Source: Citrobacter amalonaticus (GTDB lineage Bacteria > Pseudomonadota > Gammaproteobacteria > Enterobacterales > Enterobacteriaceae). From it: a DNA stretch of 64,000 bases. This document shows positions 6,836 to 14,536 of the stretch, one piece after another (position 1 is the stretch's first letter; each line of letters opens with the position of its first letter). The stretch covers positions 287,089 through 351,088 of the forward strand of contig NZ_PQMB01000005.1 in NCBI RefSeq assembly GCF_002918555.1, given 5' to 3'. Both the position numbers and the translations under genes were made by a program. The notes under the pieces were generated by a model that saw nothing but the letters and a program-made list of their open reading frames with translations, was not told where the DNA came from and searched no databases.

Positions 6836-7852
6836 ATGGAAAAATCAGCACGCCCTACCATCAGTGATGTGGCAAAAACCGCGAAAACCGGTAAAACCAG
6901 TATTTCCCGCTATCTCAATGGCGAAAAACATCTGCTTTCTGATGCGCTGCTGGCTCGTATTGAAAAAGCCATTGCCGAACTCGACTATCGCCCAAGCCTG
7001 ATGGCCCGTAACCTGAAACGCGGCCGCACTCGCCTGATAGGTCTGATCATCGCTGATATCACGAACCCCTATTCCGTCAACGTATTAAGCGGTATTGAAG
7101 CGGCCTGTCGCGAGAAAGGTTTCACCCCTCTGGTCTGTAACACCAATAACGAAGTGGACCAGGAGTTACACTATCTTGATCTGCTGCGTAGCTATCAGGT
7201 GGAAGGCATTGTGGTCAACGCTGTTGGCATGCGTGAAGAGGGGCTGAATCGTCTGCAACAGTCGGCGCTGCCGATGGTACTTATCGATCGTAAGATCCCT
7301 GATTTCGCCTGTGATGTGGTGGGACTTGATAACACCCAGGCCGCCACAGCAGCCACTGAACACCTGATTGAACAAGGGTTCGAAGCATTGCTGTTTCTCA
7401 GTGAACCACTCGGCACCGTGAACACGCGCCGCGAGCGCCTGAGCGCCTTTCGTGCGACGCTTGCCCGCTACCCTGGAGTGGTGGCGGAAGACGCCGAAGT
7501 TCCGTTGACGGAGAATACATACCTGGATAACACTTTGCGCCAGTTTCACCAACAGCACCGGGGTATGCGCAAAGCGGTGATCTCCGCTAACGGCGCGCTC
7601 ACCCTGCAGATTGCCCGCTCGCTTAAACGCATTGGTCTGAACTGGGGCAGCGATATTGGCCTGCTGGGGTTCGATGAGCTGGAATGGGCTGAGCTGGCAG
7701 GCGTCGGAATTACCACACTCAAACAGCCCACCTGGCAGATTGGTTACGCTGCCGTCGAGCAGGTGGTGCGCCGGATCGAAGGTGCCGCAGAGCCTCTCCA
7801 TGAGCAGGTTTTTTCCGGCGAACTGATCGTCCGCGGTTCCACATCCCGTTAA
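6836..7852 (+). CDS. ptxS: LacI-family repressor, PtxS-like (2-ketogluconate regulon)
   Basis: 338 residues with an N-terminal LacI helix-turn-helix (TISDVAKTAKTGKTSISRYL, residues 8-27), a hinge helix at YRPSLMARNLK and a periplasmic-binding-protein effector domain beginning RTRLIGLIIADITNPY. The call to the PtxS group rests on the context (kguE-kguK-ghrB downstream) and on a PtxS-type palindrome in the promoter of the next gene. I take the start at MEKSARPTISD; a longer in-frame start 19 codons upstream would add residues before the HTH. The ribosome site (GAGAGA) is weak, as is common for repressors. Confidence 0.82.
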   Translation: MEKSARPTISDVAKTAKTGKTSISRYLNGEKHLLSDALLARIEKAIAELDYRPSLMARNLKRGRTRLIGLIIADITNPYSVNVLSGIEAACREKGFTPLVCNTNNEVDQELHYLDLLRSYQVEGIVVNAVGMREEGLNRLQQSALPMVLIDRKIPDFACDVVGLDNTQAATAATEHLIEQGFEALLFLSEPLGTVNTRRERLSAFRATLARYPGVVAEDAEVPLTENTYLDNTLRQFHQQHRGMRKAVISANGALTLQIARSLKRIGLNWGSDIGLLGFDELEWAELAGVGITTLKQPTWQIGYAAVEQVVRRIEGAAEPLHEQVFSGELIVRGSTSR

Positions 7853-7900: not shown

Positions 7901-7914
7901 TGGAACCGGTACCA
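7901..7914. promoter_or_regulatory. PtxS-type operator upstream of kguE
   Basis: TGGAACCGGTACCA is a near-perfect palindrome that matches the Pseudomonas PtxS operator TGAAACCGGTTTCA at 12 of 14 positions. It lies 38 bases before the kguE start, where bound repressor would block transcription. Confidence 0.72.
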
Positions 7915-7952: not shown

Positions 7953-8702
7953 ATGCAGAGAAAAATTATGGTGGTGACTGCCGCTTATGGCAACGATCTG
8001 GTCCGCGCAGCTGGCGGACAAAGCGCGATGCTGCCGGTCATTTCCGGAGCCGGTGCCGACGGCGTCGAGATCCGCCGTGAAATGTTCACACCCGCAGAGC
8101 TTAAGACGTTACCCACGCTGGCCCTCGCCATTGAATTATTCGGCTTGCTGACCTGCTATTCCGCGCCAGAACCGCTGTTTCTGACTGATGGCACCCTCAA
8201 TCCACAGCTCCCCGAATTGCTTCATGAAGCACAAACACTGCGCGCACTCTGGTTAAAAGTTTCGCTCGGGCATTTTACCCATACGGAGCAATTCAACACC
8301 CTGCATAACTGGCTGGAGAACAGCGGCATGGCGCTGGTGGTGGAAAACGATCAAACCGCATGCGGGCGGCTGCTCCCAATGCAGCGCTTCAGCACGGCCT
8401 GCCAGCAACAAAAGCTGCCTGTGCGACTGACGTTTGATATGGGTAACTGGCTGTGGGTCGGCAACTCGCCGGAAGCCGCAGCAGAGCTGCTTGCTCCTTC
8501 CGTGGGCTATGTCCACGTCAAAGCCGCAGTGGCGCATCGCGACAGCTATCGCGCCGTTCCACCAGACCAGGCCGATCCCCGCTGGCTGACATTGCTCAGC
8601 AAACTGCCCGCAGAGGTGCCACGCGGCATTGAGTTCCCGCTGGAAGGGGCCGACCTGACGGAAGTTACCCGTCGCTACGTCGATATGTTACGTAAGGAGT
8701 AA
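7953..8702 (+). CDS. kguE: KguE-like TIM-barrel protein (putative sugar epimerase/isomerase)
   Basis: 249 residues resembling the xylose-isomerase-like TIM-barrel family. Segments consistent with barrel strands include ADGVEIRREMF, RALWLKVSLGHF, MALVVENDQTACG and RLTFDMGNWLWVG, with acidic and histidine residues (GYVHVKAA) at strand ends where metal ligands normally lie. In Pseudomonas kguE is the first gene of the 2-ketogluconate operon and its exact reaction is not well established. The gene is separated from kguK by only three bases and its stop overlaps the Shine-Dalgarno AAGGAG of kguK. Confidence 0.78.
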   Translation: MQRKIMVVTAAYGNDLVRAAGGQSAMLPVISGAGADGVEIRREMFTPAELKTLPTLALAIELFGLLTCYSAPEPLFLTDGTLNPQLPELLHEAQTLRALWLKVSLGHFTHTEQFNTLHNWLENSGMALVVENDQTACGRLLPMQRFSTACQQQKLPVRLTFDMGNWLWVGNSPEAAAELLAPSVGYVHVKAAVAHRDSYRAVPPDQADPRWLTLLSKLPAEVPRGIEFPLEGADLTEVTRRYVDMLRKE

Positions 8703-8705
8703 GAG

Positions 8706-9644
8706 ATGAAGAATTCCCTGGATGTCATCACCATTGGCGAAGCGATGGCGATGTTTGTCGCCACTCAGACCGGCGATTTAGCAGAAGTCGATCAGTTTAT
8801 TAAGCGCGTGGCGGGTGCCGAACTCAACGTCGCAACAGGCCTGGCGCGCCTGGGGCTGAAGGTGGGTTGGGTGAGCCGCATCGGTAATGATAGCTTTGGC
8901 CGTTTTATTCTCCACTCGCTGAAAAAAGAGGGAATTGATGCTCATGGCGTGATCCTCGATGAACATCACGCCACCGGCTTTCAGCTCAAATCCAAAGTCG
9001 AAAATGGAACCGATCCCATTGTGGAATACTTCCGTAAAAATTCAGCCGCCAGCCATCTTTCCGTTGAAGATTACAACGACGCGTACTTCTCCGGCGCCCG
9101 CCATCTGCACTTAAGCGGCGTCGCGGCTGCGCTCTCCGCCAGCTCCTGTGAACTCCTGACACACGCCGCCCGCACAATGAAAGCGCAGGGTAAAACCTTC
9201 TCATTCGACCCAAACCTGCGGCCTGTACTGTGGAAGAGCGAAGCGGAGATGGTGGAGAAACTCAACCGCCTTGCGTTTCAGGCCGACTGGGTTCTGCCAG
9301 GTTTGAAAGAAGGGATGATATTAACCGGCCAACAAACCCCGGAAGGTATCGCCGATTTCTATCTGCATCATGGCGTGAAGGCGGTGGTGCTGAAAACCGG
9401 TGCCGACGGTGCCTGGTATAAAACCGCAGAGGGTGAACAAGGAAGCGTTGCCCCGGTAAAAGTGGACCATGTGGTGGATACGGTTGGCGCAGGCGATGGC
9501 TTTGCGGTAGGCGTGATAAGCGCTCTGCTGGAAGGGCGCACGCTGCGTCAGGCCATCATTCGTGGCAATAAAATCGGTGCGCTGGCCATTCAGGTACAGG
9601 GCGACAGCGAAGGATTACCGACACGTGAAGCGTTAGGTGAATAA
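8706..9644 (+). CDS. kguK: 2-ketogluconate kinase (PfkB family)
   Basis: 312 residues of the PfkB/ribokinase sugar kinase family. N-terminal signature GAELNVATGLARLGLKVGW (about residues 37-55) and C-terminal signature DTVGAGDGFAVGV (about residues 257-269) with the catalytic aspartate of GAGD. It is closely related to 2-keto-3-deoxygluconate kinases. The position after kguE and before a 2-ketoacid reductase argues for phosphorylation of 2-ketogluconate to 2-keto-6-phosphogluconate. KDG kinase remains an alternative. Confidence 0.8.
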   Translation: MKNSLDVITIGEAMAMFVATQTGDLAEVDQFIKRVAGAELNVATGLARLGLKVGWVSRIGNDSFGRFILHSLKKEGIDAHGVILDEHHATGFQLKSKVENGTDPIVEYFRKNSAASHLSVEDYNDAYFSGARHLHLSGVAAALSASSCELLTHAARTMKAQGKTFSFDPNLRPVLWKSEAEMVEKLNRLAFQADWVLPGLKEGMILTGQQTPEGIADFYLHHGVKAVVLKTGADGAWYKTAEGEQGSVAPVKVDHVVDTVGAGDGFAVGVISALLEGRTLRQAIIRGNKIGALAIQVQGDSEGLPTREALGE

Positions 9645-9715
9645 TGACACGTGATGCTAACCGCCTCCCTAACCCCGGTGGCAACGGCGGCGTGGCGACA
9701 GACAATGGAGAAACG

Positions 9716-9891
9716 ATGACGCTGGCTCATTCTTCGGCTCGTGATTTGTGGACTCTCTCCACGACGCCACTGGCAGTCCGTTCGCATCGTACATTTTCAG
9801 GGGGGTAGCGCTTTTTGCCTCAGTATGGCTAACTCTGATTGTTAAGCCTGCCAATAATCAACAGCGACCGGTTGGCGCACGCCACGCTTAA
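9716..9891 (+). pseudogene. Vestigial kguT (MFS 2-ketogluconate permease remnant)
   Basis: Between kguK and ghrB lies a collapsed transporter gene. A good ribosome site (GGAG) precedes an ATG at 9716 encoding about nine residues MTLAHSSAR. The frame then breaks. In another frame the downstream 150 bases encode a typical MFS C-terminus: DATGSPFASYIF, LFASVWLTLIVKPANNQ, ending in GARHA and stop at 9891. A normal permease would be about 430 residues, so roughly 85-90% of the gene has been deleted internally. The position is exactly where kguT lies in kguE-kguK-kguT-kguD operons. Confidence 0.78.
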
Positions 9892-9913
9892 ATTTTAACT
9901 TACGGAGATTTGC

Positions 9914-10888
9914 ATGAAGCCGTCCATTATTCTCTACAAAGCGTTACCCGACGATTTACTGCATCGCCTGGAAGCACATTTTGCCGTGACTCAGGTCCCC
10001 AACCTGCGCCCGGAGACGGTAAAACAGCACGCACACGCTTTCGCCAGTGCAGAAGGTTTATTAGGCTCCAGCGAAGCCGTCAATACCGCCCTGCTGGAGA
10101 AAATGCCGAAGCTGCGCGCAACATCAACCATTTCCGTGGGTTATGACAATTTTGATGTGGATGCCCTCAACGCACGTAAAGTACTGCTGATGCACACGCC
10201 AACGGTGCTGACGGAAACCGTGGCTGATACGGTGATGGCGCTGATCCTGAGCACCGCCCGTCGCGTGGTAGAAGTGGCAACACGAGTGAAAACCGGTGAA
10301 TGGACGAAAAGCATCGGTCCTGACTGGTTCGGTACCGATGTTCATCATAAAACGCTGGGGATTATCGGCATGGGGCGTATTGGTCTTGCCCTCGCGCAAC
10401 GCGCCCACTTCGGTTTTAACATGCCGATTCTTTACAACGCACGGCGGCATCATCAGGAAGCAGAAGAACGTTTCAATGCGCGCTATTGCGACCTCGATAC
10501 GCTGCTCCAGGAATCTGATTTTGTATGCCTGATTCTGCCACTCACGCAAGAGACACATCACCTGTTTGGTAAAGCGCAGTTTGCCAGAATGAAGTCCTCC
10601 GCCATTTTTATCAATGCCGGGCGCGGTCCGGTCGTGGACGAGAGCGCGCTGATTGCCGCATTGCAAAATGGTGAGATCCACGCAGCGGGACTGGATGTCT
10701 TTGAACAAGAACCGCTGCCGGTGGATTCACCACTGTTGTCGCTGCCAAACGTGGTGGCGCTGCCGCACATTGGTTCAGCCACCCATGAAACACGCTACAA
10801 CATGGCAGCCTGCGCTGTGGATAACTTAATCGATGCGCTACAGGGCAAGGTTGAGAAGAATTGCGTGAATCCGCAGGTGGCAGGATAA
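9914..10888 (+). CDS. ghrB: Glyoxylate/hydroxypyruvate/2-ketogluconate reductase GhrB
   Basis: 324 residues of the D-2-hydroxyacid dehydrogenase family. NAD(P)-binding motif [16 protein letters not shown] near residues 152-167, then family signature [19 protein letters not shown] with the catalytic Arg/Glu/His triad completed by [13 protein letters not shown]. coli GhrB (TkrA/YiaE) reduces glyoxylate, hydroxypyruvate and 2-keto-D-gluconate with NADPH. Here it occupies the kguD position of a 2-ketogluconate operon, so it may serve the phosphorylated or free ketogluconate. It has its own TACGGAG ribosome site. Confidence 0.94.
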
Positions 10889-12079: not shown

Positions 12080-13450
12080 ATGACAAACAGAACGACGGAT
12101 ATTCAAGCGTTTATAAATGATCATCCCTTTTCAAAGTATCAGTGGATGATCCTCGTGCTGTGCTTTGTGACCGTCGCGATGGACGGTTTCGACACAGCCA
12201 TTATTGGTTTTATTGCCTCTGACCTGGTACAGGAGTGGGGGGTTGAGAAATCAGCGCTCGGCCCGGTAATGAGCGCCGCGCTGGTTGGGTTGGCTGTGGG
12301 CGCGCTAACGGCGGGTCCGATGGCTGACCGTATCGGGCGCAAGAAAGTCCTGATCATGTCGATTATTGTCTTTGGCGGATTTAGTCTGCTGACCGCCTTT
12401 GCCAGCACGCTTAATCAACTTACCGTCCTGCGCTTTTTAACGGGTCTGGGGCTCGGTGCAGCCATGCCCAATGCCGCTACGCTGATGAGTGAATACGCCC
12501 CCGAACGCCGTCGCGCTCTGATGGTGAATCTGATGTTTGTAGGGTTCCCAATCGGATCGTCAATGGGTGGATTTATTTCCGCATGGCTCATTCCCCATTA
12601 TGGCTGGCAGAGCGTGCTGGTTCTCGGTGGGGTGATGCCACTGATGCTGGCGCTGGTGCTCATCTTCCTGCTGCCGGAGTCGGCGCGCTATCTGGTGGTC
12701 AAAAACAAGTCCCAGCAGCAGATTGGCAAAATCCTGCGTCGTATCGCGCCACTACCTGATGCCACTCATTTTGTCCTGCGCGAAACGGGCCAGGTGAAAG
12801 AGAAATCCGCGCTCGGCGTCATTTTTTCACCGCGTTACGCACTCGGTACCGTGATGCTCTGCCTGACCTATTTTATGGGACTGCTGATTTTCTACCTGCT
12901 GACCAGTTGGCTGCCACTGCTTATCCGTGAAACGGGCGCAACATTGAGCCAGGCATCAATTATTACGGCCCTGTTCCCACTGGGCGGCGGCATCGGCGTG
13001 CTGGTGCTGGGCGCGCTGATGGACAAAATGAATCCGAATAAAGTGGTCGCGGCAGGCTGGTTGCTGACCGGCATCTTTGTCTGTCTGGTCGGTTTTTCTA
13101 CCAGCAATCTGGTGTTGATGGGCGTGATGGTATTTATTGCCGGAACGATTATGAACGGCGCGCAATCGTCGATGCCCGCTCTGGCCGCCGGTTTTTATCC
13201 CACCCAGGGCCGTGCCACCGGCGTGGCATGGATGCTGGGTCTGGGGCGCTTTGGCGGTATTCTCGGCGCCTTCAGCGGTGCATTTCTGATGCAGGCACAG
13301 CTCTCATTCGAAACCATATTTACCCTTCTCGCATTCCCGGCGCTCGTTTCCGCCTTCGCGCTGATGGTGAAATACTGGGCCGGAAAACGACAGCCGGCCA
13401 TGGTTAGCGCTTCTTCTGAAAACCTGAACAGTGCAACGCAAAAAGCCTGA
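12080..13450 (+). CDS. pcaK: AAHS-family aromatic acid:H+ symporter, PcaK-like
   Basis: 456 residues with about 12 membrane segments. The first carries DGFDTAIIGFIA, the conserved acidic motif of aromatic acid:H+ symporters. The loop GPMADRIGRKKVL is the MFS signature, and the C-terminal GFYPTQGRATGVAWMLGLGRFGGI is very close to Pseudomonas PcaK, which imports 4-hydroxybenzoate and protocatechuate. The PcaR-like boxes upstream agree with that call. No ring-cleavage genes are in the window, so the substrate is inferred. A GC-rich hairpin (CCGGCGGG/CCCGCCGG, 13458-13478) follows the stop. Confidence 0.78.
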   Translation: MTNRTTDIQAFINDHPFSKYQWMILVLCFVTVAMDGFDTAIIGFIASDLVQEWGVEKSALGPVMSAALVGLAVGALTAGPMADRIGRKKVLIMSIIVFGGFSLLTAFASTLNQLTVLRFLTGLGLGAAMPNAATLMSEYAPERRRALMVNLMFVGFPIGSSMGGFISAWLIPHYGWQSVLVLGGVMPLMLALVLIFLLPESARYLVVKNKSQQQIGKILRRIAPLPDATHFVLRETGQVKEKSALGVIFSPRYALGTVMLCLTYFMGLLIFYLLTSWLPLLIRETGATLSQASIITALFPLGGGIGVLVLGALMDKMNPNKVVAAGWLLTGIFVCLVGFSTSNLVLMGVMVFIAGTIMNGAQSSMPALAAGFYPTQGRATGVAWMLGLGRFGGILGAFSGAFLMQAQLSFETIFTLLAFPALVSAFALMVKYWAGKRQPAMVSASSENLNSATQKA

Positions 13451-14101: not shown

Positions 14102-14108
14102 GCACTCA

Positions 14109-14269
14109 ACGGTTTGACGTACAGACCATTAAAGCAGTTTAGTAAGGTAGTCCCCTTCAAGAGTTATCGTTGATACCCCTCGTAGTGCGCATTTCCTTAA
14201 CGCTTAAAAAATCTGTAAAGCACGCCATATCGCCGAAAGGCACACTTATTTTTTAAAAGGTAATACACT
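14109..14269 (+). promoter_or_regulatory. cspA cold-shock leader RNA (thermosensor)
   Basis: A leader of about 160 bases, nearly identical to the E. coli cspA 5' UTR. It includes the cold box TGACGTACAGA at 14115-14125 and the conserved segment GCCATATCGCCGAAAGGCAC just before the ribosome site AAAGG. In E. coli this leader refolds on temperature downshift to expose the ribosome site and stabilise the mRNA. Confidence 0.92.
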
Positions 14270-14482
14270 ATGTCCGGTAAAATGACTGGTATCGTAAAAT
14301 GGTTCAACGCTGATAAAGGCTTCGGCTTCATCACTCCTGACGATGGCTCCAAAGACGTGTTCGTACACTTCTCTGCTATCCAGAACGAAGGTTACAAATC
14401 TCTGGATGAAGGTCAGAAAGTTTCCTTCACCATCGAAAGCGGCGCTAAAGGCCCGGCAGCTGGCAACGTAACCAGCCTGTAA
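14270..14482 (+). CDS. cspA: Major cold shock protein CspA
   Basis: 70 residues forming one cold-shock domain. RNP1 is KGFGFITP and RNP2 is [11 protein letters not shown] chaperone that melts mRNA secondary structure after cold shock. Both the protein and the long leader match E. coli cspA rather than other csp paralogues. Confidence 0.97.
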
Positions 14483-14508
14483 GCTTAAACAGCTCATCAG
14501 AATTCCAG

Positions 14509-14536
14509 ATCCCTGCCAGTCGGCGGGGATTTTTTT
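14509..14536 (+). terminator. cspA terminator
   Basis: ATCCCTGCC/GGCGGGGAT form a 9-bp stem with one G-U pair and a 4-base loop, followed by seven T residues. Confidence 0.93.

Follow-up and report, generated by a model that had tools for sequence, protein, structure and literature searches.

The window, the whole 64,000-nucleotide stretch of Citrobacter amalonaticus DNA analysed here, sits on a contig of 577 kb; the genome measures 5.53 Mb and is assembled in 16 contigs. The gene order in the region of interest is yiaD, a LacI-family regulator gene, kguE, kguK, a stretch of 269 bp, ghrB, yiaF (minus strand), a gene of the major facilitator superfamily (MFS), and a 110-aa frame that we take for yiaG. 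Small-gene names were assigned by comparison with E. coli K-12, and the kgu and ptxS names rest on synteny with Pseudomonas. The regulator gene (6836–7852, plus strand) is intact and has LacI and periplasmic-binding Pfam domains; from synteny, it is presumably ptxS-like. Downstream on the same strand lie an intact kguE-like TIM-barrel gene (7953–8702), an open frame of 249 aa whose product matched AP_endonuc_2 in Pfam with a score below the cut-off of that family, and an intact kguK (8706–9644), the PfkB-family 2-ketogluconate kinase gene, which has a PfkB domain and is 78–89% identical to the kguK of 80 comparison loci fetched by KguK match. The ghrB gene (9914–10888, plus strand), for a 2-ketoaldonate/glyoxylate reductase, is also intact, and GhrB alone among the operon genes reached an NCBIfam cut-off (GhrB equivalog, 670 bits; cut-off, 492). 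The operator that the earlier note, made from the window alone, had described as kept is present upstream of kguE as a kgu operator-like palindrome (7902–7913) with one change relative to the common core, GGAACCGGTTCC. This core was perfect upstream of kguE in six of the ten relatives checked, and ACCGGT was not found in the searched stretch of the other four.

From the kguK stop (9644) to the ghrB start (9914) the window has 269 bp. Across all 80 comparison loci, the distance between the last kguK codon and ghrB is 1351–1655 bp (273 bp in the window by the same measure), and the longest frame between the two genes reaches at least 416 codons in 79 loci and 291 codons in L045. Alignment with these relatives, the check that the earlier note had proposed, bears out its claim that a transporter gene is missing between kguK and ghrB, with the coordinates in agreement: an internal deletion took ~1.1 kb of kguT, from codon 2–3, just past the start codon, to about codon 370. 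What remains is the kguK–kguT spacer (9645–9718, plus strand), with a ribosome-site-like GGAG (9707–9710) 5 nt before an ATG (9716–9718), followed directly by kguT from about codon 371. The deletion junction falls at 9719–9720, a position good to a few bases and set by the size of the gap and the alignments. The tail (9721–9888) aligns to codons 371–426 of intact kguT with 80% protein identity and one TGA, its DNA is 78–89% identical to that of nine relatives, and in the old KguT frame it carries several missense changes besides the stop. As the earlier note had it, this is an MFS C-terminal tail that ends GARHA in a frame different from that of ATG 9716; a tail lacking KguT homology was looked for, and the tail proved homologous. 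By its position between kguK and ghrB and by its homology (80% over residues 371–426), the sequence corresponds to a KguT orthologue, and the full-length frame of ~426 aa is absent, with ~1.1 kb missing, the frame changed and one stop present. Evidently, kguT here is a remnant and no transporter.

The start region bears out the earlier note only in part, which had the ribosome site, the start codon and the first nine codons all surviving. The first two hold (GGAG and ATG 9716). The 74 bp through the ATG resemble the spacer of the Kluyvera locus L033 (score 21) and that of the genome G157 (L125; score 20), above 300 of 300 single-base shuffles in each case, and had no match to the kguK–kguT spacers of five other relatives tried. 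The nine codons do not hold. KguT of the relatives starts MNSSTNAAKR or a variant of it and the window reads MTLAHSSAR, and over the 32 bp that follow the ATG, alignment scores are 16–20 with the kguT tail and 6–9 with the kguT start in seven of seven relatives. These bases resemble the tail far more than the start, so what the earlier note took for the beginning of KguT is, by these alignments, frameshifted kguT tail. Should the ATG at 9644 have been meant instead, it overlaps the kguK stop and opens a 54-codon frame (9644–9808) through spacer and remnant, which is not KguT and is probably a chance frame. An assembly deletion in the source genome is extremely improbable as the origin of the gap: the assembly is in pieces (16 contigs) and the deletion is seen in the assembled sequence alone, but the remnant has a stop and missense changes at sites fixed in 20 relatives, which argues against an assembly gap, since lost reads would not cause them.

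Searches of 198 family genomes found KguK in 72 and a KguT-like match in 90 (both E ≤ 1e-60). From a comparison of the two lists by eye, the window genome was the sole KguK-positive genome of the 72 without a KguT match at this threshold. G028 (49% complete) had only KguT fragments with stops, and stops in KguK as well, and the KguT match of G203 was flagged with one TGA. G157, the nearest genome to the window among the 198 by KguK (92%), has a kguT that is frameshifted near codon 24 and otherwise open for 402 codons, and carries a second KguT-like gene elsewhere, a paralogue (72%). In a survey of disruptions across 83 other loci (for the window itself the kguT entry hit a different MFS gene and was uninformative), kguT was broken in L045, L046 and L125, ptxS in L046 and L094, and kguE and ghrB in L060; L046 looks error-prone, with other broken genes, and L127 seems to be a contig identical to L041. 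Such cases are too few to claim recurrent kguT loss as a trend. The L060 locus, from Trabulsiella odontotermitis, appears to have kguE and ghrB broken and kguK and kguT open. Five further genomes (G002, G035, G138, G164 and G196; loci L145–L149) have kguT and ghrB adjoining, with KguK on a separate contig in G002 and G164 and no KguK match at E ≤ 1e-60 in G035, G138 and G196. A regulator–kguE–kguK–kguT–ghrB set also occurs in E. coli NT1F34 (L122, 1917–7111), near an integrase gene and a tRNA-Phe, and 12 of 5426 E. coli genomes match the window kguK in a near-mode search.

The permease was deleted from mid-operon and the enzymes were left intact, as the earlier note described; kguE, kguK and ghrB are without stop or frameshift, and the 899 codons of ptxS, kguE and kguK hold neither. 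Under a two-ratio codon model (23 taxa; an in-house script that took all branch lengths but the window's from a nucleotide tree, with a single scale factor left free), ω on the window branch was 0.039 for ptxS, 0.185 for kguE, 0.067 for kguK and 0.054 for ghrB. A separate dN/dS for this branch was not supported (ptxS, p = 0.56; kguE, p = 0.20; kguK, p = 0.62; with ghrB, p = 0.20–0.79), and the codon models detected no relaxation in ptxS, kguE and kguK, singly or jointly (p = 0.20–0.67). All four genes are open and under purifying selection, and averaged over the window branch their constraint is not detectably below that of the relatives. A looser count, limited to sites invariant in 18 relatives, gave 16 nonsynonymous to 7 synonymous window-specific changes in ptxS, kguE and kguK together, compared to 6 to 10 in the flanking yiaD, ghrB and yiaF, with kguK alone at 8 to 2; for the three kgu genes, the comparison loci gave 2 to 5 (L125), 3 to 4 (L033) and 5 to 5 (L044). 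This count leans to mild relaxation in kguK and may be taken as a hint of it. That hint aside, kguE, kguK and the reductase gene are open and constrained, as they would be in an active kgu pathway.

The kguK count, the change in the kgu operator, and the frameshifts of kguT in G157, in L045 and in L046 would all be in keeping with a kgu pathway on its way out, with kguT lost first and the other genes affected too recently to show decay. We regard this course, one of the two that the earlier note had offered, as unlikely. It finds no support in the codon models, and the 899 codons hold no disruption where the remnant has one stop in 56 (p = 0.059; p = 0.003 with two disruptions, if the frame change is counted apart from the deletion). 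Neither G157, which keeps its KguT paralogue, nor L046, with its other broken genes, is a clean parallel.

The other course was that import had moved to another transporter, which fits the data, although no importer was identified among the proteins of the genome. A search for an intact KguT found no orthologue elsewhere in the genome, with the best other KguT-like protein at 29% identity. Other MFS proteins do exist. The MFS gene at 12080–13450 was rejected as a replacement importer because it is of the aromatic-acid symporter type; its counterpart also lies beside yiaF in Kluyvera L033, and it thus looks ancestral. Outside of the window, on contig C12 of the same genome (L143, 1315–8569), is a cassette of RpiB-, transaldolase- and transketolase-family genes with a TIM-barrel isomerase, an MFS transporter and a GhrB-like dehydrogenase. 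A search of 39 other genomes of the family and order gave no match to this transporter at E ≤ 1e-100, and it was set aside as a new importer, and treated as a lead only, because its cassette neighbours suggest a different sugar acid. The genome further encodes a membrane PQQ glucose dehydrogenase and a gluconate 2-dehydrogenase subunit 3 adjoining a GMC oxidoreductase, so periplasmic formation of 2-ketogluconate is plausible. 2-Keto-3-deoxygluconate and 2-ketogulonate are further substrates of one characterised 2-ketogluconate kinase (PMC6651773), so the enzymes kept in the window could in principle serve other ketoacids.

The remnant has decayed unevenly: the last 109 bp have hardly changed and the first 85 bp have decayed, an unusual conservation of the kept tail that the earlier note missed. 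With gaps counted, identity to Kluyvera L033 is 70–77% where the tail begins (its first three bins of 30 columns) but 97–100% per 30-bp bin from about 9805 to 9924. Bases private to the window amount to 8 of 85 in 9720–9804 and 2 of 109 in 9805–9913 when compared to 20 relatives (p = 0.023), and to 12 of 85 and 2 of 109 when compared to five Kluyvera (p = 0.0013). The contrast gives p = 0.057 (20 relatives) and p = 0.005 (Kluyvera) without the ghrB leader, and is weak for the 51-bp core alone (p = 0.15 and p = 0.03, respectively). Residue differences from L033 are distributed likewise, eight of nine falling within the decayed first part of the remnant (9721–9804, plus strand), which holds the in-frame stop and missense changes. 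The preserved part (9805–9913, plus strand) comprises the end of the kguT tail and the ghrB leader, and is the proposed cis element of ghrB.

The preserved block corresponds to a block of rare codons in relatives with an intact kguT. For this comparison, six loci (L045, L046, L048, L092, L108 and L111) were removed from the 80, and from the remaining 74 a non-redundant set of 35 species, <90% identical to each other in kguT, was kept. The lowest-scoring (rarest) run of 20 codons begins at codon 395–408 of kguT in 31 of the 35 species (all except L041, L091, L093 and L104), the modal codons at 397–419 across the set are mostly those that kguT otherwise uses rarely, and GC3 is 0.43 in the block compared to 0.69 over the whole gene. 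In the same species, the rarest run occurs at the 3′ end of ptxS in 2, of kguE in 2, of kguK in 2 and of ghrB in 4, and it does so in 0 of 12 KguT paralogues (69–74% identical), in whose fetched stretches ghrB was not found. The rare-codon statistic was chosen after a plain conservation statistic came out non-significant; synonymous-site conservation did not single out the kguT 3′ end across species (74 loci), and the part of kguT most conserved at synonymous sites across these loci (L032–L111) is the 5′ end, codons 4–30. Same-codon conservation at the 3′ block was raised in a 16-locus Citrobacter/Kluyvera subset. None of six further copies, the five distant kguT–ghrB pairs and the E. coli island copy, has its minimum at the 3′ end, indicating that adjacency to ghrB is insufficient, and in three of the six the 3′ end still scores low (z = −2.1 to −2.3). 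E. coli K-12 has no kgu genes at its ghrB site and a different ghrB leader; taken with the distant and island copies, this suggests that only part of the family has the element. The recurrence in 31 of 35 species, together with the controls and the retention of the block in the remnant, indicates constraint on the DNA beyond that on the protein.

Two other readings of the preserved block bear on these results. The private-change counts are small and identity to L033 over about 9805–9924 is higher than on either side, as might be seen if the preserved tail were functionless and due to chance or to recent recombination with a Kluyvera-like donor; this is improbable, given that rare codons recur at the same place in so many divergent species, and that the raised same-codon conservation across the 16 Citrobacter/Kluyvera loci goes beyond one transfer into the window genome. 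Somewhat less remote, though still doubtful, is that the rare codons act through translation, by slow termination or by coupling to ghrB, rather than as control sites in the DNA. Ribosomes can be slowed by rare codons, only a few bases separate the kguT stop from the ghrB start in relatives, and a promoter scan gave no forward site in the block, either in the window or in Kluyvera L033. In the window, however, translation from the kguT start no longer reads that frame, and still the block has outlasted the DNA just upstream; this speaks for a role of the DNA or RNA itself.

Of such functions, we infer a cis element for ghrB within the end of kguT, and the candidate we favour is a promoter for ghrB that a regulator site may overlap. 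A sigma-70-like site occurs in the block of K. pneumoniae L066 (9 of 12); the same rule gives none in the window or Kluyvera L033. An RNA hairpin or structured leader was rejected: stem pairing of the dyad was no better than in shuffles in an RNA covariation test, the fold of the block was unsupported (z = +1.27), the only Rfam match in the window was cspA (14108–14536), and a relaxed RNA-family search at the block gave one match, far below the cut-off of its family. RNAalifold gives an alternative stem made largely of hardly varying pairs. The imperfect dyad (9836–9860) was taken from alignment A2, which contains 29 of the 35 species and the window and omits L085, L091, L093, L097, L104 and L106, seemingly without the block; even with these omitted, the RNA test was negative. 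As a regulon motif, the dyad was rejected because a genome search at ≤2 mismatches matched no other site and a reversed control pattern also gave matches. The main text of a paper on K. pneumoniae start sites (PMC3415461) makes no mention of kgu, ghrB or yiaE. In its most specific form, to which we would give slightly less than an even chance, the proposal is that the final ~25 codons of kguT also serve as the ghrB control region in Citrobacter, Kluyvera, Klebsiella, Enterobacter and relatives, with a promoter and an overlapping dyad operator, and that the window represents a natural promoter-only allele.

The explanation preferred for the locus as a whole, with a probability of roughly 0.6, is that kguT was deleted and its tail was kept as a cis element of ghrB, with the other operon genes constrained. 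An internal deletion removed ~1.1 kb of kguT, and the permease with it, and what is left of the gene holds a stop and missense changes. Positions 9805–9913 would have been kept because a cis-acting element still required by ghrB overlaps the final ~25 codons of kguT; an internal promoter is its likeliest nature, either alone or overlapped by a regulator site. On this view the operon lost its permease but retained the DNA that controls ghrB, the last of its genes, and its enzymes may serve imported 2-ketogluconate or ketoacids arising inside the cell. A broken gene can reveal which of its bases served something besides its protein, and the uneven decay of the dead kguT points to a dual-use stretch ending an intact transporter gene in many enterobacteria. 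If so, GhrB could be made without the kgu operon, and knockout or deletion of kguT in relatives may also disturb ghrB. Apart from this, the genome offers a natural example of a bacterium that retains its 2-ketogluconate enzymes after losing the permease.

No paper with both ghrB and kguT was found in the literature searched, outside of which lie subscription journals and supplements. Among the matches listed, none was on the subject by title for 2-ketogluconate or kguK with Klebsiella or Citrobacter koseri, or for ghrB with promoter, and several top matches for kguT with 2-ketogluconate concern Pseudomonas. Pseudogene remnants in bacterial operons are a known kind, and the window resembles them in having a start region and a frameshifted tail after an internal deletion with the flanks intact; it differs in that the remnant decays unevenly, with the part next to ghrB kept. 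Promoters inside operons that overlap the 3′ end of the preceding coding gene are likewise known. The proposed element would share with them a synonymous-site signature where the upstream gene ends and a downstream gene that has separate functions, GhrB also being named glyoxylate/hydroxypyruvate reductase; unlike them, the block has a weak consensus, is limited to part of the family and is known from sequence alone. The closest counterpart of the whole locus is the kguEKTD/PtxS system of Pseudomonas (PMC11678583), which has the same order of LacI regulator, kguE, kguK, kguT and reductase gene, and an ACCGGT-centred palindrome before kguE, as the window does; Pseudomonas PtxS binds TGAAACCGGTTTCA, and the window differs in the deletion of kguT. 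In that paper, co-transcription of Pseudomonas kguT and kguD was inferred from a 9-bp gap too short for a promoter (PMC11678583). In the enterobacteria examined here, unlike in Pseudomonas as described there, control DNA may sit inside the coding end of kguT, where it would escape the short-gap argument; a short intergenic gap does not exclude a promoter.
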